Source of the DNA: Flavobacterium sp. ov086
GTDB lineage: Bacteria; Bacteroidota; Bacteroidia; Flavobacteriales; Flavobacteriaceae
DNA: 64,000 bases
Assembly (NCBI RefSeq): GCF_900187965.1
Contig: NZ_FZNL01000001.1
Coordinates: 310,001 to 374,000, forward strand
Direction of reading: 5' to 3'
The position numbers and the translations under genes are program-made. Below, in pieces: positions 55,943 to 63,380 of this stretch; the stretch's first letter is position 1; the number at the start of each line of letters is the position of its first letter. The notes beneath the pieces were generated by a model that searched no databases, was not told where the DNA came from, and saw only the letters and a list, made by a program, of their open reading frames with translations.

Positions 55943-58093
55943 TTAAAGCAAGTTCTGTTTGCTCCACAAATTATAGTATTCTTTTTTTTGTTCCAGTAAA
56001 TTAAGATGATTTCCAGATTCAACAATAGCTCCATTTTTCATTACTAATATTGTATCAGCATTAGCGATCGTACTCAATCTGTGTGCAATTACAATTATAG
56101 TTTTTCTTTGCAACTTGAAATTATCAATAACTTCTTTTACCATTTTCTCTGAGTTTGTATCAAGTGATGATGTTGCTTCATCCATTAATAAAATTTCAGG
56201 ATTTTTGTATAATGCTCTGGCAATTGCAATTCGCTGTTTTTGTCCTCCTGATAACATTGCTCCATTTTCGCCAATTTGTGTTTCGAAACCATTAGGTAAT
56301 TTTTCTACAAATTCGGTAATTCCTAATTGTTTTGACAAAGCTAAAACTCTTTGAATATCAGGGAATGAAGCTCCTAAAGCTATGTTTTCTATAATATTTC
56401 CTGAAAACAAATTAAGCTGTTGTGGAATAACTCCTATCAATTGTCTTAAACTTTTATAATGTATAAATTGAGTATCATAATCTCCAATACAAATTTTCCC
56501 TTCTTTAATTGGATATAAGTTTTGAAGTAATGCAATTAAAGTTGTTTTCCCGCTGCCACTTTCGCCAACGATGGCCGTTGTTTCATTTTTCTTAAATATA
56601 GCGTTGAAATTTTTAAAAACCTCAATTCTGGAACCATATCTAAAAGAAACATTCTCAAATCTAATATCCCCAATATTGTCTTTTTGCAATTCAACTTTAT
56701 TTTCTGTTTCTTCTCGTTCCAAATCCATTATTTCAAAAAGTCTATCGGCAGCAATTAATGCGTTTTGCGCTGTTTTGTTCATACCAATTAAAGAAGCCAC
56801 AGGCGAAGTAAAATAACCAATTAAAGCATAAAATGAAAATAATTCTCCAGGTGTAATCGCTCTGTCAATTACATAACCTGATCCAATCCACATTAAGATT
56901 ACAGTAAAGGCTGAGGCTAGAAATTGTGTAGAAGTACTTGCAAAAACACCATTTAAACCCGATTTAAAAGTGGTAAATAATAGCTTAACAAATTTGTTCT
57001 CCGTCTTTATGTTTGAAAATTCTTCTATTCCAAATTCTTTTACTGTTCGCACATGAGTGATACTTTCAACTAATTGAGTCTGTAGTTCGGCAGCATTCTC
57101 CATAATGTTTCGCTCTACTTTCTTATTGAATTTATTCAGAATAAAATAAATCACGGTATAAAACGGAATTACAAGCAAAATAACCAAAGCCAATTTCCAA
57201 TAATAAGTAAACATTAAGGAGAATGAAAAAATTACAATAAAAACATTTACGATCATTTCTATTGCTACTTCATTTATAAACGAACGAATTTTTACAGCAT
57301 CATTTATTCTCGACGTAATCTCTCCTATTTGCATAGTATCAAAAAAACGTTGTGGTAAATGAAGTAAGTGTTTATAATAACCCAGGATTAATTTTGCATC
57401 TATTAATTGTCCTGTTTTCATTACAAAAATGCTTTTCTTCGAGCCAATATAAGCTTGAAGCAATATGATTACAATCATAGAAATGCTTAATAAATTCAAG
57501 AGATTTCTATTGCCATCTACCAAAACATAATCTGTTATTTTCTGAATATAAATAGACATTGCTAATCCCAGTACGGTAAATACTATCGCACCAACCAAAG
57601 CCTGAATTAAAATAATTTTATGTGGCTGAATTAAATTCCAAAAACGTTTTATGGGAGAAGTTATCTCATTGGAGCTCTTAAAAGAATCATTTGGCGCAAA
57701 AAGAATTAATACTCCTGACCATATTTTTTGAAAGTCCTCAAAAGTATAAACCTCCATTTTACCAAAACCAGGATCCATAACCGTAATTTGGGCTTTTTCT
57801 ACTTTATAAATTACAACATAATGATGTAATTGCTCTTTTGTAATAAGATGTGCAATAGCCGGAAGCGGGATTTTATCTATAGAACTCAAGCCTCCTTTCA
57901 CGCCTTTGGCGGTGAATCCCATTTTTTCGGCAGCTTCAATAATTCCTAAAACATTTGTACCTCGCTTATCTGTATTTGCATATTGACGAATTCGTGCTAT
58001 AGGAAGATTAACTTTGAAATGGTTTCCAATAGATGCCAAACAAGCAGCACCACAATCTTTAATATCATGTTGCTTTATTTTTATTGAAGCCAT
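55943..58093 (-). CDS. Peptidase C39-containing ABC exporter (bacteriocin type)
   Basis: The 716-aa protein joins an N-terminal C39 cysteine protease (Cys14 in DCGAACLAS, His91 in HHYVVIY, Asp107 in MDPGFGK), six membrane helices (about 155-430) and a nucleotide-binding domain with Walker A GESGSGKTTL, signature LSGGQKQRIAIARAL and Walker B ILLMDEATSSLD. Such proteins cut double-glycine leaders and export the core peptide in one step. It is the last gene of the locus and overlaps hlyD by 29 bases. Its likely substrates are the two precursor peptides at 62858 and 60966. Confidence 0.93.
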   Translation of the reverse strand: MASIKIKQHDIKDCGAACLASIGNHFKVNLPIARIRQYANTDKRGTNVLGIIEAAEKMGFTAKGVKGGLSSIDKIPLPAIAHLITKEQLHHYVVIYKVEKAQITVMDPGFGKMEVYTFEDFQKIWSGVLILFAPNDSFKSSNEITSPIKRFWNLIQPHKIILIQALVGAIVFTVLGLAMSIYIQKITDYVLVDGNRNLLNLLSISMIVIILLQAYIGSKKSIFVMKTGQLIDAKLILGYYKHLLHLPQRFFDTMQIGEITSRINDAVKIRSFINEVAIEMIVNVFIVIFSFSLMFTYYWKLALVILLVIPFYTVIYFILNKFNKKVERNIMENAAELQTQLVESITHVRTVKEFGIEEFSNIKTENKFVKLLFTTFKSGLNGVFASTSTQFLASAFTVILMWIGSGYVIDRAITPGELFSFYALIGYFTSPVASLIGMNKTAQNALIAADRLFEIMDLEREETENKVELQKDNIGDIRFENVSFRYGSRIEVFKNFNAIFKKNETTAIVGESGSGKTTLIALLQNLYPIKEGKICIGDYDTQFIHYKSLRQLIGVIPQQLNLFSGNIIENIALGASFPDIQRVLALSKQLGITEFVEKLPNGFETQIGENGAMLSGGQKQRIAIARALYKNPEILLMDEATSSLDTNSEKMVKEVIDNFKLQRKTIIVIAHRLSTIANADTILVMKNGAIVESGNHLNLLEQKKEYYNLWSKQNLL

Positions 58094-59243
58094 TTTTGTT
58101 GGTTTTATTAATTGATAACTGTTTTGGGTTTAACCAATCGTCTATTTTGTCAAATAATAAATCAAATAAACTTCTGCGGGTTATTATATATCTCGCAGTC
58201 AATGTCATCCCTTTAGACACATTGGTTTTATGACCTGATTTTAATTGTAATGTTGTTGAATCTAAAACACAACGAACTTTAAAAAAAGCTTGTTCTCCCT
58301 GAATGGTTATATTTCGATCAATATCAATTACTTTACCTTCAAGCAAACCCCATTGATTGTAGTTAAATGCATCTAATTGAAATTTTACTTTCTGATTCTT
58401 TTTTATAAGCCCAATATCGTTGGGAGAAACTGTACTTTCTACAATAAGACGATCTGAAGCCGAAATTGTAGCAATAGTTTGCGAAGCATTTATATATGAC
58501 CCTACCTGAATACCTGAAAAACTTTCGATTGTTCCCGAAATAGGTGCTAAAACAACATAATTAGTAGATTCAACATTTATTTTGGCAACAGCTCCTTTTA
58601 GATTTTTTAATCGTTCTTCTAAGTCTCTTTTCTGATTTTCCCAAGTAGATTTTTGTTGGCTGATATAAGTTTCTAATGCTTGTTTGGCTAAACGAAATTC
58701 ATATTCATGCTTTTCAAATTCTGATTTTGCGATAATATCTTTATCATATAGTATTTTATTTCGGTCATGGTTGATTTGAGCTTGCGAAACTTTACTCTTC
58801 AATTCATTTTTGCCTGATTGAAATTTAGATAAATCTTCGCGCGCTGTTGATGTTGATAGATGAGTCGTTTTATTTTGTAATAAATTTGAAATATCATCTA
58901 AAAGAGCAACTACTGAACTCGACAAAGTATCTTGCGTTCTTTTATCTGTTTCTAAATTTTCTTTTGAGATTTTTATAAGGGTGTCTCCTTTTTGTACAAT
59001 GCTATTATTCTTTAGAGATAACCTTGTTGCACGACCGCTTACAATTGTCGAAATAGGTACATTATCAGTCACAGTACGAATAATGCCACGGCTTTGACTG
59101 CTAATATCTACTTTAATAACTGGTAACAAAATCAGAAATATTATAATTGAAAGAACAATAATAAAGTAAATCGAAAAGCTTTTTGTTTTGTTTTTCGAGA
59201 TTAAGTTTTCTAGAGAATTTATTGGGTCCGAACTGAAATTCAT
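58065..59243 (-). CDS. HlyD-family periplasmic adaptor
   Basis: The 392-aa protein has a short cytoplasmic tail, one membrane helix (about residues 24-42), a lipoyl-like half (RATRLSLKNNSIVQKGDTLIKIS), a long coiled coil (KNELKSKVSQAQINHDRNKILYD...) and the second half (VVLAPISGTIESFSGIQVGSYINASQTIATI). It links the inner-membrane C39 ABC exporter to an outer-membrane channel. Its ATG follows the DUF2007 stop by 5 bases. No TolC-like gene is in the window. A decayed copy of its first 30 codons lies at 60354-60446. Confidence 0.92.
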   Translation of the reverse strand: MNFSSDPINSLENLISKNKTKSFSIYFIIVLSIIIFLILLPVIKVDISSQSRGIIRTVTDNVPISTIVSGRATRLSLKNNSIVQKGDTLIKISKENLETDKRTQDTLSSSVVALLDDISNLLQNKTTHLSTSTAREDLSKFQSGKNELKSKVSQAQINHDRNKILYDKDIIAKSEFEKHEYEFRLAKQALETYISQQKSTWENQKRDLEERLKNLKGAVAKINVESTNYVVLAPISGTIESFSGIQVGSYINASQTIATISASDRLIVESTVSPNDIGLIKKNQKVKFQLDAFNYNQWGLLEGKVIDIDRNITIQGEQAFFKVRCVLDSTTLQLKSGHKTNVSKGMTLTARYIITRRSLFDLLFDKIDDWLNPKQLSINKTNKNGFNKNKAT

Positions 59244-59248
59244 AGTAC

Positions 59249-59509
59249 TTAGGTTATTTTTTTAAGTAAATCATATACTCCAGCATTAAAACCATCAATT
59301 ATTCTCTTAGCCTTTTCATAATCATTATCTCTAACTTTTAGCTTTACGGAATTCACATCACCAATTAAAACTCCCCATGGATTAAATACAGACATCAATG
59401 AAGCATCTTCAAAAACCTGAATCGAATAACTTTCTAATAATGTTTTTAAAATTACCGCTTCATCTTTACTTCCATTATGAACTGCTTTTCTCTTTTGTTG
59501 TTCTATCAT
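59249..59509 (-). CDS. DUF2007 (putative signal-transducing) small protein
   Basis: The 86-aa protein has the DUF2007 pattern: DEAVILKTLLESYSIQVFEDASLMS then a strand pair and VKLKVRDNDYEKAKRIIDGF. The fold is ferredoxin-like and the function is unknown, though the family often lies beside PII-like or transport genes. It overlaps the DUF3267 gene by one base (TAATG) and precedes hlyD by 5, so all are one transcript. A second, broken copy lies at 60481-60726. Confidence 0.85.
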   Translation of the reverse strand: MIEQQKRKAVHNGSKDEAVILKTLLESYSIQVFEDASLMSVFNPWGVLIGDVNSVKLKVRDNDYEKAKRIIDGFNAGVYDLLKKIT

Positions 59510-60081
59510 TATTTTACTATTTTGAAACCTACCTTACTATCATGATCTAAAAGTTTATATCCCAAACCAGTTTTAATAATTAAGTAAGCATAAATAAAAT
59601 CTCCAACGGCTCCTAAAGTCATAGAAAAGCCAATAAATAAAAAAAACAGATTATTATAGAAGATCCCATATAAAGAAGGAAAAAAACCTAAAATAAAAAA
59701 GGGAGCTAATGATACTATTAGCATTTTTTTTGACAACAATGCCTCTTTACAATTTGCAAATGGCATTAAATACTTTTTAACAAATCCAAATCGTACCGAT
59801 TTCCAACTATTCTCAGAAAAAAAAGCCATGAAGACGCCATGAATTAATTCATGAATAATAATTCCTAGTATAATAATTAAGTTTGGTATTAGTATTACCA
59901 AAACAACATTGGCCCTTTTATTATCAAAAAATAGTAATGATTCTTTTATTTCTTTTAAATTCTGTTTAAATACTTCATCCCATTTTAAACACAATACTAA
60001 AACAAACAACACTATAATAGGAATACTAATTATTATACCTATAACTTGTACTTTCTTTGAATCAATAGAGACTTCCTTCAT
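59509..60081 (-). CDS. DUF3267 putative zinc protease, membrane protein
   Basis: The 190-aa protein has about five membrane segments and the zinc motif HELIHG at residues 77-82 inside one of them, as in DUF3267 and related site-2-like membrane metallopeptidases. Later there are SLAPFFILGFFPSLYGI and a conserved Gly-rich helix. It could process or degrade a precursor peptide, or protect against it. A remnant of its 3' end precedes the broken DUF2007 copy, showing that this gene was part of the duplicated block. Confidence 0.85.
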   Translation of the reverse strand: MKEVSIDSKKVQVIGIIISIPIIVLFVLVLCLKWDEVFKQNLKEIKESLLFFDNKRANVVLVILIPNLIIILGIIIHELIHGVFMAFFSENSWKSVRFGFVKKYLMPFANCKEALLSKKMLIVSLAPFFILGFFPSLYGIFYNNLFFLFIGFSMTLGAVGDFIYAYLIIKTGLGYKLLDHDSKVGFKIVK

Positions 60082-60256
60082 TTTCTATAATTTTGTAGTC
60101 TAAAATCTTTAACGTTTCCTCGGGGATTTCAATTTCTTTTATTGAAATCAATTCTGTTTCAACAATTTGTTTTACTCCATTAAAACTCATTTCTGTTCTA
60201 TTATAAGCTACTAATTCATTCCTTTTCAAAGAAATCTGTATTGCCTGATTTCTCAT
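60062..60256 (-). CDS. Probable 3' remnant of an unrecognised gene
   Basis: From the ATG at 60256 the product is 64 aa (MRNQAIQISLKRNELVAYNR...), overlapping DUF3267 by 20 bases. The frame is open further upstream to 60403, reading FTVRSYNFINND and then SKVKTIHIPNIELTSYNAYF with no ATG. The open frame runs back to the deletion junction near 60371, where hlyD-like sequence begins. I infer that the 5' half of a larger gene was lost in a deletion. Whether the internal ATG is used is unknown; the family is not recognised. Confidence 0.5.
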   Translation of the reverse strand: MRNQAIQISLKRNELVAYNRTEMSFNGVKQIVETELISIKEIEIPEETLKILDYKIIENEGSLY

Positions 60257-60353
60257 ATTAAAATTAAAATATGCATTATAAGATGTTAATTCAATATTTG
60301 GTATATGTATTGTTTTAACCTTAGAATTAAAACTATTATCATTATTGATGAAA

Positions 60354-60446
60354 TTATATGATCTTACTGTAAATTGAAAAGCTTTTTGTTTTGTTTTTCG
60401 AGATTAAGTTTTCGAGCGTGTTTGTTGGATCTGAACTGAAGTTCAT
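60354..60446 (-). pseudogene. Truncated copy of the hlyD start
   Basis: This 30-codon frame starts MNFSSDPTNTLENLIS and reaches FSIY, identical or nearly so to the first 26 residues of HlyD (59243), then diverges and stops at 60354. The DNA identity also covers the upstream spacer. Similarity ends at about 60371. It is a relic of a second copy of the DUF2007-hlyD junction. Confidence 0.85.
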
Positions 60447-60480
60447 AGGGCTTAACTTGGATTATATTTTTATAATAAAT

Positions 60481-60726
60481 TCATGGATAGTAAGCTCCTG
60501 CATTAAAATCATCAATTATTTTTTTTGCTTTATCATAATCATTTTCTCTAACTTATAACTTTACTGAGTTTACATCACCATTCAAAACGCCCCATGGATT
60601 AAATACAGACATTAAAAAAGCGTCTTCAAAAACCTGAATTGAATAACTTTCTAATAACGTTTTTAAAATTACTGTTTCATATTTACTGCCATTATAAACT
60701 GCTTTTCTCTTTTGTTGTTCTATCAT
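60481..60726 (-). pseudogene. Broken second copy of the DUF2007 gene
   Basis: The frame from ATG 60726 matches the intact DUF2007 protein at most positions (MIEQQKRKAVYNGSKYETVI). At codons matching LKV of the intact copy it reads L-stop-V (TAA at 60553-60555) and continues in frame as VRENDYDKAKKIIDDFNAG to a TGA at 60481-60483. One nonsense change therefore cut the gene. A few bases before the ATG match the end of the DUF3267 gene, so the duplication included that junction. Confidence 0.88.
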
Positions 60727-60762
60727 TATTCTACTATATTGAAAACAAATAATCAAATACAA

Positions 60763-60897
60763 TTATCCTCCAAATTCTTTTTTCCAAGCTTTTAAAATAC
60801 CGGATAAGTCCCAAATCTTTTTTTTGTATTTCGTTGCCAAAAATTTCAAAACGAAAACATCAAATAACAAAAACAAAACTATTATGTATAAGCTCAT
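60763..60897 (-). CDS. 44-aa single-helix membrane miniprotein
   Basis: The frame runs from ATG at 60897 to TAA at 60763-60765. The product starts MSLYIIVLFLLFDVFVLKFL, a hydrophobic helix of about 20 residues, followed by a Lys-rich tail (ATKYKKKIWDLSGILKAW) ending EFGG. It lies 68 bases downstream of precursor A, with a terminator hairpin between. In bacteriocin loci small basic membrane proteins often give self-immunity; that is inference only. No family match is recognised. Confidence 0.5.
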   Translation of the reverse strand: MSLYIIVLFLLFDVFVLKFLATKYKKKIWDLSGILKAWKKEFGG

Positions 60898-60913
60898 AAT
60901 TATGGATATATAA

Positions 60914-60953
60914 AAATAGCTACAAATTTATTTTACTAAACCTGTAGCTATTT
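60914..60953 (-). terminator. Terminator after precursor peptide A
   Basis: AAATAGCTACA (60914-60924) and TGTAGCTATTT (60943-60953) are perfect 11-bp arms around 18 bases. On the minus strand it is followed by TTTTTATATA, so most transcripts from the precursor A promoter should end here, 13 bases past the stop. Confidence 0.7.
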
Positions 60954-60965
60954 AACTAATTAGTA

Positions 60966-61130
60966 CTATGTATATATTAATGAATCTCCGAAATCATACA
61001 TTCTCATAATGTTAACTCTCCCGGCCCCAACCCACCATGGGCCAAAGAATCCGCCATCAACTTCTTGTACTTCCTGAGCATTAAGCTCTACTAAATTCAA
61101 ATCTTCTAAATTCACTACTGCTAATTCCAT
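60966..61130 (-). CDS. Double-glycine precursor peptide A (54 aa)
   Basis: From ATG 61130 the peptide begins MELAVVNLEDLNLVE and reaches a double glycine at residues 26-27 (EVQEVDGG). Relative to the cut, Leu-12, Asn-11, Glu-8, Val-7 and Val-4 fit the C39 leader pattern. The 27-residue core starts FFGPWWVGAG and ends DSLIYT, has no cysteine, three Trp/Phe-rich positions and no net charge. An upstream in-frame start at 61169 exists but the MELAV start is shared with peptide B. It has its own promoter and terminator and lies just after the ABC ATPase gene. It is the likely cargo of the C39 exporter. Confidence 0.85.
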   Translation of the reverse strand: MELAVVNLEDLNLVELNAQEVQEVDGGFFGPWWVGAGRVNIMRMYDFGDSLIYT

Positions 61131-61194
61131 AATTTTTAAATTTAAATGGTTAATTAATAAATCCAACAAATCATTTTCTCGAGAACCTTTTTTG

Positions 61195-61242
61195 TTATAG
61201 CAAACTTACCAGACTTCCGTCCAATAAAATTGGACGGAACTG
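61195..61242 (-). promoter_or_regulatory. Precursor A promoter with palindromic operator, a relic of the regulator gene end
   Basis: On the minus strand the sequence holds the perfect palindrome TTCCGTCCAAT-TTT-ATTGGACGGAA (61239-61215), six bases, then the -7 element TAAGTTTG (61208-61201). The same DNA, read in frame, spells QFRPILLDGSLVSLL-stop (61242-61195), nearly the last 14 residues of the HTH regulator (FRPILLDRTLISLL). So this segment is a duplicated end of the regulator gene that now serves only as promoter and operator. A second short palindrome, TTCTCGAGAA at 61176-61185, lies in the leader and is also kept in copy B. Confidence 0.7.
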
Positions 61243-61253
61243 CATTAATTATT

Positions 61254-61898
61254 TTAAATAACCTTCATTGCCGAAAAGAGTTCTTTTTCAATTTCTATAA
61301 AATCACTTTTATCAAATTCTTTTATCTTTTTATTTTTTAGCAGAAAGATTTTATCACAATCTTTATAAAGAATTTCTAAAATATGAGAAGAAATAAAAAC
61401 AATACTCTTTTCTGATAATTTTCGGATATAATTCATTAATAAATAATTAGATTCTAAATCCAGTCCATTGAAAGGCTCATCGAAAATATAAATTGAATAT
61501 GTTTTCTGTAAAACAGCATTCATGTAAGCTTTCTTTTTCATCCCTGTAGAAAACTCCTTGATCAATTTATCCTGTGGCACATCAAACATTAGAAAATCAT
61601 TATTCTCAATATTTAGCAATTCCTGATAGAAAGTGGCAAATTCTTTTGCAGTTAATTCTTCATAAATTAAAGGCTCAGTAGGACACCAAGCAATTTTGCC
61701 ATGAAGAGAAAGCTCTTTCGCATGATTAATAGAACCTGCAAAAGAAGTTAAACCTATTATACATCTAAATAATGTAGTTTTTCCTTCTCCATTTTTCCCA
61801 ACAACTCCATAAATTCCATTTTTAGATATAGAAATCGAAATATTTTCTAAAACTATTTTGTCTTTATAGGACTTATTTTTTATGTCAATTTGAAGCAT
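61254..61898 (-). CDS. ABC transporter ATPase subunit
   Basis: The 214-aa protein has Walker A GKNGEGKTTL, a variant signature FSTGMKKKA, Walker B IYIFDEPFNGLD and the switch histidine in SSHILEIL. It overlaps the permease gene by 14 bases, so they form a pair. It lies between the two precursor genes, which suggests a role in self-immunity or peptide export rather than nutrient uptake; that is inferred from position. Confidence 0.88.
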   Translation of the reverse strand: MLQIDIKNKSYKDKIVLENISISISKNGIYGVVGKNGEGKTTLFRCIIGLTSFAGSINHAKELSLHGKIAWCPTEPLIYEELTAKEFATFYQELLNIENNDFLMFDVPQDKLIKEFSTGMKKKAYMNAVLQKTYSIYIFDEPFNGLDLESNYLLMNYIRKLSEKSIVFISSHILEILYKDCDKIFLLKNKKIKEFDKSDFIEIEKELFSAMKVI

Positions 61899-62790
61899 AC
61901 TGAATAGCTTTAATGGTTTTAACTGATTTTAAATACAAAAACGGAATAGCTATAACTGGTATTCCGAGCGGAAGCATGCTTAAAAAAACAGCAAGCATAA
62001 GTTGATGTTGAAATTGATTCTTAAAGAATGAATATTTGAATATGATATTAACTAATGGAATTGCAAAAATTAAGGGGACAAAACAAAATAATTCCCATTT
62101 CTGAAAAATAAGAAGACTAACAATTAATGGAGTAGTTACCATTAACGAATTCACAATTACTGTCTTGAATTGATTAGTAAGGTAATATTTCTCATAATAA
62201 GAACTAATCTTTATACTCTCTAAAGATTCTCTTTGAAAAGAGGGTAATGCACCAAATAATGAAGCTATAAAAAATGAAGCTATAATAAGGTTTTCATTAT
62301 TGTATAAATCTCCTAAAATTACAAGAAAGACAGTTATTGGAAGAAATAAAATTAACTTGTTCCTCCTCCAGCAAATGTGCCAAAATGGATCAAATAATTT
62401 AAAAGGATATTTAATTATCTTATTATGAAATTCGGGAACAACAACAATATACGCAGTAATTAAAGCAAGATATATTAAAGCCAATAGATATTCTTTGTTT
62501 ATAGCAAGCAAAAGCAAATAGAGTAAACTATAAATAAAATATTCTCCAAATAATATTAATTTCCATTTCTTATTTAGTTTCAACAACTCAATATCTTTTC
62601 GATTAAGATGGTAGAAAAAAATATCTAAAGAAAATAAAAGGGAATAATTTCGTAAAACTTGGAACTTTTCATTTAAGCAGAAAAGATATAATAGGCAACC
62701 ACAAAGAAAAAGCATGACAGCCAATTTATCCTTAGCAGGCAAAAATTTTCTAAGACGAATTAGTAGTAAAGTTTGGATTACTTGTATCAT
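61885..62790 (-). CDS. ABC transporter permease subunit
   Basis: The 301-aa protein has about eight or nine hydrophobic segments from residue 25 to the end (for example LAVMLFLCGCLLYLFCL, IYSLLYLLLLAI, TVFLVILGDLY, FFIASLFGALPSF, FKTVIVNSLMVTTPLIVSL) and no known enzyme motif. It is paired with the downstream ATPase by a 14-base overlap. A terminator-like hairpin sits between precursor B and its ATG at 62790, so expression is probably a fraction of precursor B expression. Confidence 0.75.
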   Translation of the reverse strand: MIQVIQTLLLIRLRKFLPAKDKLAVMLFLCGCLLYLFCLNEKFQVLRNYSLLFSLDIFFYHLNRKDIELLKLNKKWKLILFGEYFIYSLLYLLLLAINKEYLLALIYLALITAYIVVVPEFHNKIIKYPFKLFDPFWHICWRRNKLILFLPITVFLVILGDLYNNENLIIASFFIASLFGALPSFQRESLESIKISSYYEKYYLTNQFKTVIVNSLMVTTPLIVSLLIFQKWELFCFVPLIFAIPLVNIIFKYSFFKNQFQHQLMLAVFLSMLPLGIPVIAIPFLYLKSVKTIKAIQYASN

Positions 62791-62808
62791 ATTTTATTAA
62801 TAAAAAAT

Positions 62809-62843
62809 AAGGAACGAATCACTAAATAGTAGATTCGCTCCTT
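62809..62843 (-). terminator. Attenuating terminator between precursor B and the ABC genes
   Basis: In the minus-strand transcript AAGGAGCGAAUC pairs with GAUUCGUUCCUU (12 bp with one G-U) around 11 bases and is followed by AUUUUUUAUU. It lies 15 bases past the precursor B stop and 19 bases before the permease ATG. Confidence 0.75.
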
Positions 62844-62857
62844 AAAATTTTCAACAA

Positions 62858-62995
62858 TTAATAAGCTTGATGTGTTCCCCACAATAAGAAAACTGCAATT
62901 ACTAATGGGATAATCCCACCCTCAATTTCCTGCGCTTCTTGAGCATTAAGCTCTACTAAATTCAAATCTTCTAAATTCACTACTGCTAATTCCAT
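62858..62995 (-). CDS. Double-glycine precursor peptide B (45 aa)
   Basis: The peptide begins MELAVVNLEDLNLVE, ends its leader EAQEIEGG at residue 27 and has an 18-residue core, IIPLVIAVFLLWGTHQAY, that is strongly hydrophobic and without cysteine. Its first 56 bases are identical to those of precursor A, and the leaders differ at only three residues, but the cores are unrelated. It lies 64 bases after the regulator stop and is followed by a terminator. It is the likely second cargo of the C39 exporter. Confidence 0.85.
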   Translation of the reverse strand: MELAVVNLEDLNLVELNAQEAQEIEGGIIPLVIAVFLLWGTHQAY

Positions 62996-63059
62996 AGTTT
63001 CAATTTTAAAATGTTAATTAATAATCTTAACAAAAATCATTTTCTCGAGAACTATTTTG

Positions 63060-63380
63060 TTATAGCAAACTTATCAGAGTTCTGTCTAATAAAATTGGAC
63101 GGAAGTTAGAACCTCCAAAAATTTCTCTTGATTCATCATCTACAATAATTTTCAAAGAATAATTTAATATTAATTCAAAAGAAGATGCATAATAAAAACT
63201 CTCTCGCTTTTTGCAATATTTTAAAGGCGCATCCAGATCTTTCATTATATCTAATTCGTTATACAACTGGCTTCGACTTAAGAGCAGCTTTTTTGCAAAA
63301 ACACTTGGTGTACCTGTTTTTTCAGAACTTATCAACTTATGTATTCTTTTAATTCTTTCGATTTGTTTAATAAAATTCAT
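63060..63380 (-). CDS. HTH regulator of the bacteriocin-like locus
   Basis: The 106-aa protein has an N-terminal winged-helix/HTH_11-like domain (IERIKRIHKLISSEKTGTPSVFAKKLLLSRSQLYNELDIMKDL) and a short C-terminal part with YYASSFEL. The last 14 residues (FRPILLDRTLISLL) are encoded by DNA that holds a near-palindrome and a -7 element for the following precursor gene. It is the first gene of the locus and the natural candidate to bind that palindrome. No sensor kinase or membrane sensor is visible, so the signal it answers is unknown. Confidence 0.8.
   Translation of the reverse strand: MNFIKQIERIKRIHKLISSEKTGTPSVFAKKLLLSRSQLYNELDIMKDLDAPLKYCKKRESFYYASSFELILNYSLKIIVDDESREIFGGSNFRPILLDRTLISLL
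63066..63104 (-). promoter_or_regulatory. Precursor B promoter and operator inside the regulator gene
   Basis: On the minus strand: TTCCGTCCAAT and ATTAGACAGAA (63104-63080), two mismatches from the copy A palindrome, then six bases and the -7 element TAAGTTTG (63073-63066), 71 bases before the precursor B ATG. The order and spacing are the same as in copy A. Confidence 0.65.

Follow-up and report, generated by a model that had tools for sequence, protein, structure and literature searches.

A predicted modular peptide-export island in Flavobacterium, with cassettes between a winged-helix regulator gene and an HlyD–C39 exporter

Gene content of the locus

The locus occupies positions 55943–63380 on the minus strand of the window, by which we mean the whole stretch of DNA analysed (64,000 nucleotides from Flavobacterium sp. 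ov086), and all genes named in the initial annotation are present there (Table 1). The gene set consists of a common backbone, two cassettes (A and B) and a leftover that has no peptide gene. Overlooked at first reading were the 64-residue gene, the scar copies, and a duplicated regulatory region with leader, which precedes both peptides (61051–61239 and 62916–63104). The two double-glycine (GG) leader peptides, of 27 and 18 residues, are also as first described, both with cysteine-free cores. The calculated monoisotopic masses of the neutral peptides are 3197.53 Da (27-mer) and 2053.18 Da (18-mer). Judged from the sequences, lack of cysteine is not a trait of the family; cysteine is present in relatives of the 18-mer (L003, L007) and in several other cassette peptides.

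Table 1 Features of the locus, in order along the minus strand
Feature	Position	Strand	Family
HTH regulator, small winged-helix, 106 residues	63060–63380	−	
Element 1 (palindrome 63080–63104 and TAnnTTTG box), within the last HTH codons, before the 18-mer	63066–63104	−	
18-mer precursor, cassette A, core IIPLVIAVFLLWGTHQAY	62858–62995	−	
Permease of ABC pair, cassette A, predicted self-protection	61885–62790	−	
ATPase of ABC pair, cassette A	61254–61898	−	ABC_tran
Element 2 (perfect palindrome 61215–61239 and TAnnTTTG box), with HTH gene-end fragment, before the 27-mer	61201–61239	−	
27-mer precursor, cassette B, core FFGPWWVGAGRVNIMRMYDFGDSLIYT	60966–61130	−	
44-residue membrane-like protein, cassette B, predicted immunity partner of the 27-mer	60763–60897	−	
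Scar: truncated second copies of DUF2007 and HlyD 5' end	60369–60744	−	
64-residue protein, leftover cassette	60062–60256	−	
DUF3267 membrane zincin-like protein, leftover cassette, predicted protection gene	59509–60081	−	PF11667
DUF2007-like protein, leftover cassette	59249–59509	−	PF09413
HlyD-type periplasmic adaptor; the variable slot ends on the right at its 5' end	58065–59243	−	
C39 peptidase-ABC exporter	55943–58093	−	PF03412

The C39 exporter matches its peptidase family at 123.4 bits, and its residues 5–712 align with solved peptidase-containing bacteriocin transporters (e.g., 4ry2). Export of the two GG-leader peptides by this protein, as originally proposed, is still the best reading, as a prediction. 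There is no match to the OEP (TolC-type) family in the window, in agreement with the earlier statement that it holds no outer-membrane channel gene; the whole genome has 40 OEP domain matches, mostly two per gene.

The leftover lies behind a scar that repeats the start of HlyD. In this scar, the truncated DUF2007 copy matches at 88% over 250 nt, and the HlyD copy comprises the first 86 bases around the HlyD start (87%). In the leftover itself, DUF3267 is assigned at 80.6 bits and has a HELIH motif, and DUF2007 scores 23.5 bits, below the cut-off of 25.7. Since these two genes adjoin several different peptides in other loci, their role could be accessory instead of protective.

A variable slot and its cassettes

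We compared 54 loci, having removed duplicates before counting (L066, a duplicate of L005, and L059, a duplicate of L111). The island order is an HTH gene, at least one cassette (palindrome, promoter-like box, GG peptide or peptides, and partner genes), HlyD and C39, and a full-length HTH, HlyD and C39 backbone was found in 20 of the 54. Conservation of the neighbourhood among relatives, on which the first reading had been made to depend, thus holds for the backbone and not for the contents of the slot. Similarity to the window ends at the 27-mer leader (61044–61057) in four loci (L040, L006, L005 and L004) and restarts at the HlyD start (59243–59245) in L040 and L006. In L004 it restarts at 60257 because the leftover is also present there, and the L005 sequence ends before similarity could restart. 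Where the slot is empty (L003, L007), similarity ends at the end of the ATPase gene and restarts at HlyD. A varying content of bacteriocin-type and predicted immunity genes is found behind a common exporter. Single-linkage clustering divided 65 cores into 29 families, a number we do not use as a family count because several hydrophobic types were merged in one group of 25.

The cassette B genes also occur elsewhere. In genomes G283 and G175 the 27-mer and the 44-residue gene (86–89% identical) are paired upstream of HlyD–C39, with no 18-mer, and in G004 an intact 44-residue gene stands behind a decayed stretch that matches the end of the 27-mer gene. Searched against plasmids, the cassette B stretch gave no match. 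We infer that the 44-residue membrane-like protein would protect against the 27-mer.

For cassette A, the permease has no Pfam match, and a fold search with its all-helical model found no PDB match at E 0.001. That the permease/ATPase pair protects against the 18-mer is a prediction from gene context and the weakest link of our reading. The alternative is that the pair is a resident ABC system unrelated to the peptides, around which bacteriocin genes settled. We regard this as doubtful, though it is the most serious of the alternatives. An 18-mer-type GG peptide lies directly ahead of the permease in 11 of 35 permease genomes, this peptide–permease unit can precede HlyD or follow C39, and the best NCBIfam match of the ATPase is to lantibiotic protection family TIGR03740 (90.1 bits, far under the cut-off of 309.75), all of which speaks against a chance neighbour. 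In the other 24 of the 35, however, no such peptide directly precedes the pair: it stands alone between RseP and an oxidoreductase gene in six loci (L047, L049, L050, L051, L055 and L056), and in others it lies at a different site, where the stretch covered gave no match to an exporter or peptide. These peptide-less pairs fit orphan immunity and an unrelated ABC pair equally well.

The 18-mer could also be a pheromone that is exported, sensed or taken up via the permease/ATPase, and turns on an HTH regulon driving exchangeable toxins. Seven loci (the window, L003–L007 and L040) share an almost invariant core (IIPLVIAVFLLWGTHQAY or close variants of it), and in all of them the 18-mer comes first after the HTH gene while the neighbouring slot varies. 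However, most full islands examined have no 18-mer and carry other peptides in the first slot, and divergent forms of it lie behind C39 in L046, L053 and L061, both of which weaken a role as constant signal. The locus in the window, moreover, contains no sensor kinase, response regulator or receptor-like gene, and the predicted structure of the small regulator shows a winged helix and strands but no additional ligand-binding domain. We therefore consider a signalling role improbable.

The predicted palindrome-promoter element and the regulator

The element has the pattern TTCCGTCCAA-N5-TTRGACGGAA, followed 6 nt on by TAnnTTTG. It lies within the final HTH codons and is copied ahead of other cassettes. 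Both the exact pattern and the palindrome with up to 2 mismatches are confined to the same two sites within the 6.2 Mb genome. Allowing no more than 2 mismatches, 45 copies were counted in the loci examined. The box is exactly 6 nt past the palindrome in 40 of them and absent from 5, a proportion we use in place of 44/49 because copies with 3–4 mismatches had entered that count only if they had a box, which biases it. The ATG of a GG-leader gene is 105–114 nt from the element start in 36/45 copies; the remaining 9 have no recognised peptide at the usual distance, although the peptide filter overlooked at least one, a GG peptide unlike the 27-mer in L100. Across 398 genomes the pattern matches 33, a number that likely includes chance matches (G029, G280 and G351 have neither box nor peptide), and a reversed control pattern also matches in some genomes.

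The first copy is part of the HTH gene itself, and those elsewhere often come with a recognisable fragment of the gene end, as would be expected if the palindrome were an accident of HTH coding sequence that hitchhikes, without function of its own, with duplicated leaders. The pattern of conservation makes this very unlikely. Among boxed copies outside HTH genes (n = 16), 23 of the 25 element columns are 0.88–1.0 identical, compared with a median identity of 0.56 (0.38–0.94) in the 30 bases upstream. Within HTH genes, gene pairs with the same residue share its codon at a mean of 0.886 in codons 93–106 versus 0.604 in codons 1–90 (27 HTH genes, 25 with the tail; Mann-Whitney p = 2.3e-5). Synonymous change is suppressed in the gene end, exactly at the element, which is a constraint at the DNA level. 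In addition, two palindrome types can be distinguished, TTCCGTCCAA and TTCCGTGCAA, and the second is changed in both arms, while the spacing from palindrome to box is constant.

The AlphaFold model of the regulator has three helices and strands, with low confidence at residues 94–106. A Foldseek search returned weak matches to winged-helix regulators (NiaR, BirA), none at E 0.001. We asked which of 90 HTH positions associates with palindrome type, using the best 120 of 130 HTH matches, of which 14 with other tail residues were excluded. The strongest association, among these best 120 of 130, was at residue 37, inside predicted helix 36–48: it is S in 93/93 proteins with the CC/GG palindrome type in their tail and R in 12/13 with the GC type. 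Genome G334 (R37) carries the GC-type palindrome both in the HTH gene and on a different contig, where it precedes a GG peptide. On the tree, supported branches force only one change and the supported-branch test had one pair, so that the covariation of regulator and operator may reflect one single event; its independence is not established.

The HTH protein also has a conserved GG at residues 89–90 (116 and 119 of 120, again the best 120 of 130), and a tail of 16 residues comes after it. We rejected the tail as a processed peptide because its DNA is constrained, its model is of low confidence and relatives in other genera end shortly after the GG or carry unlike tails. L046 retains its cassettes although its HTH gene is disrupted, and in L119 the stretch covered includes the element and GG peptides but lacks an HTH gene.

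Peptide class, known systems and a working model

Profile scans found no modification-enzyme families among the scanned locus proteins (the 18-mer precursor and the 44-residue protein were each covered by one of two scans). With cysteine-free cores, neither peptide is a lanthipeptide, as had been concluded at the outset, nor is either of bacteroidetocin type, as locus scans found no thiol oxidoreductase family. Two features of class II type bacteriocins are present: short precursors with a double-glycine leader, and a C39 peptidase-ABC exporter with an accessory protein. The 18-mer precursor scores 24.1 bits against TIGR03949 (NCBIfam; class IIb, lactobin A/cerein 7B family), over the cut-off of 21.5, through its leader and first core residues, and the 27-mer precursor scores 17.0 bits, under that cut-off. 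A GxxxG-type motif is a defining feature of class IIb bacteriocins and occurs in neither core. The suggestion that the two peptides act together as one two-peptide toxin did not hold up and is the least probable alternative: despite nearly identical leaders, one exporter, the leader-half match of the 18-mer and the frequency of paired peptides in related islands, those pairs are adjacent genes behind one element, whereas here each peptide has its own element copy, partner genes lie between them, and each is found without the other (the 18-mer alone in L003 and L007).

Class II microcins, which come from Gram-negative bacteria, likewise have GG leaders and leave the cell through a C39-ABC protein with an HlyD-type adaptor and TolC; they have longer products and Enterobacterales hosts, and we set them apart by this description. 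The pneumococcal blp locus is similar in its GG-leader peptides, common ABC exporter and varying sets of bacteriocin and immunity genes, with recombination within the locus, and its two kinds of putative immunity protein are short membrane proteins and CAAX-type proteases (PMC4860687). DUF3267 belongs to a different predicted protease family from those. Unlike blp, as that source portrays it (Gram-positive, with the pheromone BlpC and response regulator BlpR), the island has a winged-helix regulator, an element in a gene end and HlyD, and the window locus genes include no kinase or response regulator, with an HTH regulator instead. The bacteroidetocins have been described from a four-gene region with a thiol oxidoreductase, where the authors found no immunity gene (PMC6671954); the locus here differs in having predicted immunity genes. 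Class II precursors have been predicted across Bacteroidota at large (PMC12648078). A search of titles and abstract openings in the open-licence literature found no published description of the island.

Our combined findings suggest that the locus is probably one copy of a modular Flavobacterium island, with variable peptides between HTH and HlyD–C39, and that it would produce and export two antibacterial peptides acting independently of each other; we infer the killing, the immunity and the operator binding. The winged-helix regulator would bind the palindrome overlapping its own gene end and, by so doing, would control every cassette with a copy. The C39 domain would cleave after the GG, and the 27-mer and the 18-mer would then leave through the exporter and a TolC-type channel whose gene lies elsewhere, each guarded against by the putative partner genes of its own cassette. 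DUF3267, the 64-residue protein and DUF2007 may be protection genes from an earlier cassette whose peptides were lost. Cassettes may enter by homologous recombination between the element-leader repeat (~190 bases) on one side and the HlyD 5' end on the other, and the truncated second HlyD 5' end could be a trace of such an insertion.

We lean, by a narrower measure of confidence, towards a plug-in arrangement in which the HTH gene end stores the operator and promoter, cassettes carry a copy of it, and operator and helix change together, with another palindrome in other Flavobacteriaceae. A cassette carrying the copied gene end would then be wired at once, on capture, into both regulon and exporter.

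Class II type bacteriocins have been studied mostly in Gram-positive bacteria. If our reading is true, the island is a counterpart of exchangeable bacteriocin loci in the Gram-negative Bacteroidota and would provide dozens of candidate peptides with predicted matching immunity genes, as well as a handle for finding more, in the form of a single palindrome-promoter element whose distance to the start codon hardly varies. It would also explain in concrete terms how a peptide gene, once captured, comes under existing control.

The locus, its products and its relatives

The gene set and positions of this locus, initially annotated as a bacteriocin-like secretion locus with two cysteine-free GG-leader peptides, were borne out on re-examination. 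Both predicted products, one 27 and the other 18 residues long, do lack cysteine, and their leaders are near-identical and of the GG type. We distinguish a backbone (winged-helix HTH regulator, HlyD and C39 exporter), cassette A (18-mer and ABC permease/ATPase), cassette B (27-mer and a 44-residue membrane-like protein) and a group of three genes encoding a 64-residue protein, DUF3267 and DUF2007. Residues 5-712 of the exporter align with solved peptidase-containing bacteriocin transporters. We found 40 OEP domain matches in the window's genome and C39 domain matches at 10 places, one of them weak and partial. Thus, outer-membrane channels and GG-peptide exporters are not rare there, and the ten C39 matches suggest that this genome likely has several GG-peptide export systems. 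The locus itself contains two duplications.

Positions of features in the window
Feature	Position	Detail
Locus	55943-63380	minus strand
Duplication 1, leader and upstream region	61051-61239 and 62916-63104	
Duplication 2	60369-60744	truncated DUF2007 copy (88% over 250 nt) and HlyD 5' end copy (87% over 86 nt)
Second short palindrome, TTCTCGAGAA	61176-61185 and 63042-63051	between promoter-like box and each peptide start
GG pair of the regulator	63111-63116	HTH residues 89-90
DNA similarity to L040	up to 61057; resumes at 59245	88.8% up to 61057

The locus is present in five Flavobacterium genomes (loci L003-L007). All five retain the HTH, 18-mer, permease and ATPase genes, and the four that are not cut (the contig stretch of L005 stops within the locus) retain HlyD and C39 as well as the flanks of the window, with RseP on one side and an NADH:flavin oxidoreductase gene on the other. 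The stretch between ATPase and HlyD is variable: this slot is empty in L003 and L007 and holds other peptides and other neighbour genes in L004, L005 and L006, with the 64-residue protein, DUF3267 and a DUF2007 piece common to L004 and the window. The nearest relative identified, G103 (locus L040; permease 93%), has a 127-residue protein in this slot along with two other short peptides, of which one carries an imperfect GG.

The promoter-like element and its predicted regulator

The element reads TTCCGTCCAA-N5-TTRGACGGAA, followed 6 nt on by TAnnTTTG, which resembles the Bacteroidota -7 box. It occurs twice in the window's genome, once for each peptide. Among 45 copies in the examined loci (at most 2 mismatches), the box is found at precisely this distance in 40, and the GG leader starts 105-114 nt from the element start in 36. 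The short palindrome TTCTCGAGAA reappears, altered, before other peptides. In HTH-bearing islands, the first element copy lies inside the last HTH codons (FRPILLDGTLISLL being the commonest form). For HTH gene pairs encoding the same residue, mean codon identity was 0.886 at the element versus 0.604 in codons 1-90, and the structure prediction for the protein tail has low confidence, which points to constraint on the gene end at the DNA level. At the 16 boxed copies outside HTH genes, most similarity is lost directly upstream of the palindrome. The GG pair within the regulator, followed by a 16-residue tail, is retained in 116 and 119 of 120 homologues (the best 120 of 130), and the GG also in eight HTH relatives from other genera.

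A second palindrome type, TTCCGTGCAA...TTGCACGGAA, is altered in both arms and encodes the tail FRA..LHG, the other type encoding FRP..LDG. We compared 106 HTH proteins with either tail, drawn from the best 120 of 130 matches after leaving out 14 with other tails. Residue 37, which falls within the predicted recognition helix, is S in 93/93 proteins with FRP..LDG and R in 12/13 with FRA..LHG, the strongest association with the palindrome among 90 HTH positions. Genome G334 (R37) carries the second type within its own HTH gene and, on a different contig, ahead of a GG peptide. G139, which gave no HTH match, has a copy near which no peptide was seen, and the type was absent in eight other genomes tried. 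On the tree, the best form needs 7 changes for each trait with only 1 forced, so that independent co-changes of residue and palindrome are not established. By eye and uncontrolled, three of the eight loci with an HTH gene from other Flavobacteriaceae genera (L147, L148, L152) show a differing palindrome-like TGCAA...TGCAG at the end of that gene or shortly beyond it, and GG-leader-like peptides lie downstream.

Distribution of backbone and cassettes

The HTH protein was found in 56/398 Flavobacterium genomes (E 1e-5), 30 of them with a match of at least 56% identity over at least 93 residues, and a relative in 49/378 genomes (36/237 genera) of the family sample. Full-length HTH, HlyD and C39 occur together in 20/54 examined loci. 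L107, L109, L112 and L114 are decayed islands at the same chromosomal site.

Full and reduced islands among the examined loci
State	Loci
Full backbone	window, L003, L004, L006, L007, L040, L053, L054, L057, L101, L102, L104, L105, L106, L108, L110, L111, L113, L115, L116
HTH present, HlyD and C39 both absent	L107, L112
HlyD and C39 as short pieces	L114
HlyD and C39 both broken	L109
HlyD broken	L100, L103
Only permease/ATPase at site	L047, L049, L050, L051, L055, L056

Cassette peptides are frequently paired and followed by a membrane protein, and cassettes of one type can occupy different slots. The CPVC pair, accompanied by a 220-residue protein, precedes HlyD in L046 and L101 and follows C39 in L111; the FLLE/FMWG pair, accompanied by a 412-residue protein, follows C39 in L003 and L004 and precedes HlyD in L111; and the 18-mer type with permease/ATPase precedes HlyD in the window and its closest relatives and follows C39 in L046, L053 and L061. 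DUF3267 and DUF2007 adjoin several different peptides elsewhere (L053, L061, L102, L110) but none in the window, where they are best read, from this gene arrangement, as a leftover.

Of the 35/398 genomes with the permease, 11 have an 18-mer-type GG peptide immediately before it (window, G103, G396, G052, G339, G344, G121, G217, G207, G063, G354). None was seen at that position in the remaining 24, which are compatible both with orphan immunity and with an unrelated ABC pair. The permease/ATPase pair is also present at a second insertion site adjoining ATP synthase genes (L041-L045), together with a C39 exporter in L042, L044 and L045. The 44-residue protein of cassette B occurs in 6/398 genomes, two of them weak. 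In G283 and G175 its gene lies immediately behind a close relative of the 27-mer, with HlyD and C39 downstream; no other island gene was recognised in G175. The known palindrome was not seen in the 3 kb examined around these two copies, which must therefore have a different promoter. The gene is intact in G004, where a decayed stretch matching the 27-mer gene end precedes it. This distribution is the pattern of a predicted toxin-immunity pair with orphan immunity.

Proposed exchange of cassettes

The individual parts of the island are of already known kinds. In the open-licence literature searched, mostly as titles and abstract openings, we found no description of a Gram-negative island that is modular and carries its element within the gene of its regulator. 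We infer secretion, killing, immunity and DNA binding by the island products. Most likely, one regulator, one promoter element and one exporter would be common to exchangeable predicted toxin-immunity cassettes, which would be renewed by recombination between the element-leader repeats and the HlyD 5' end.
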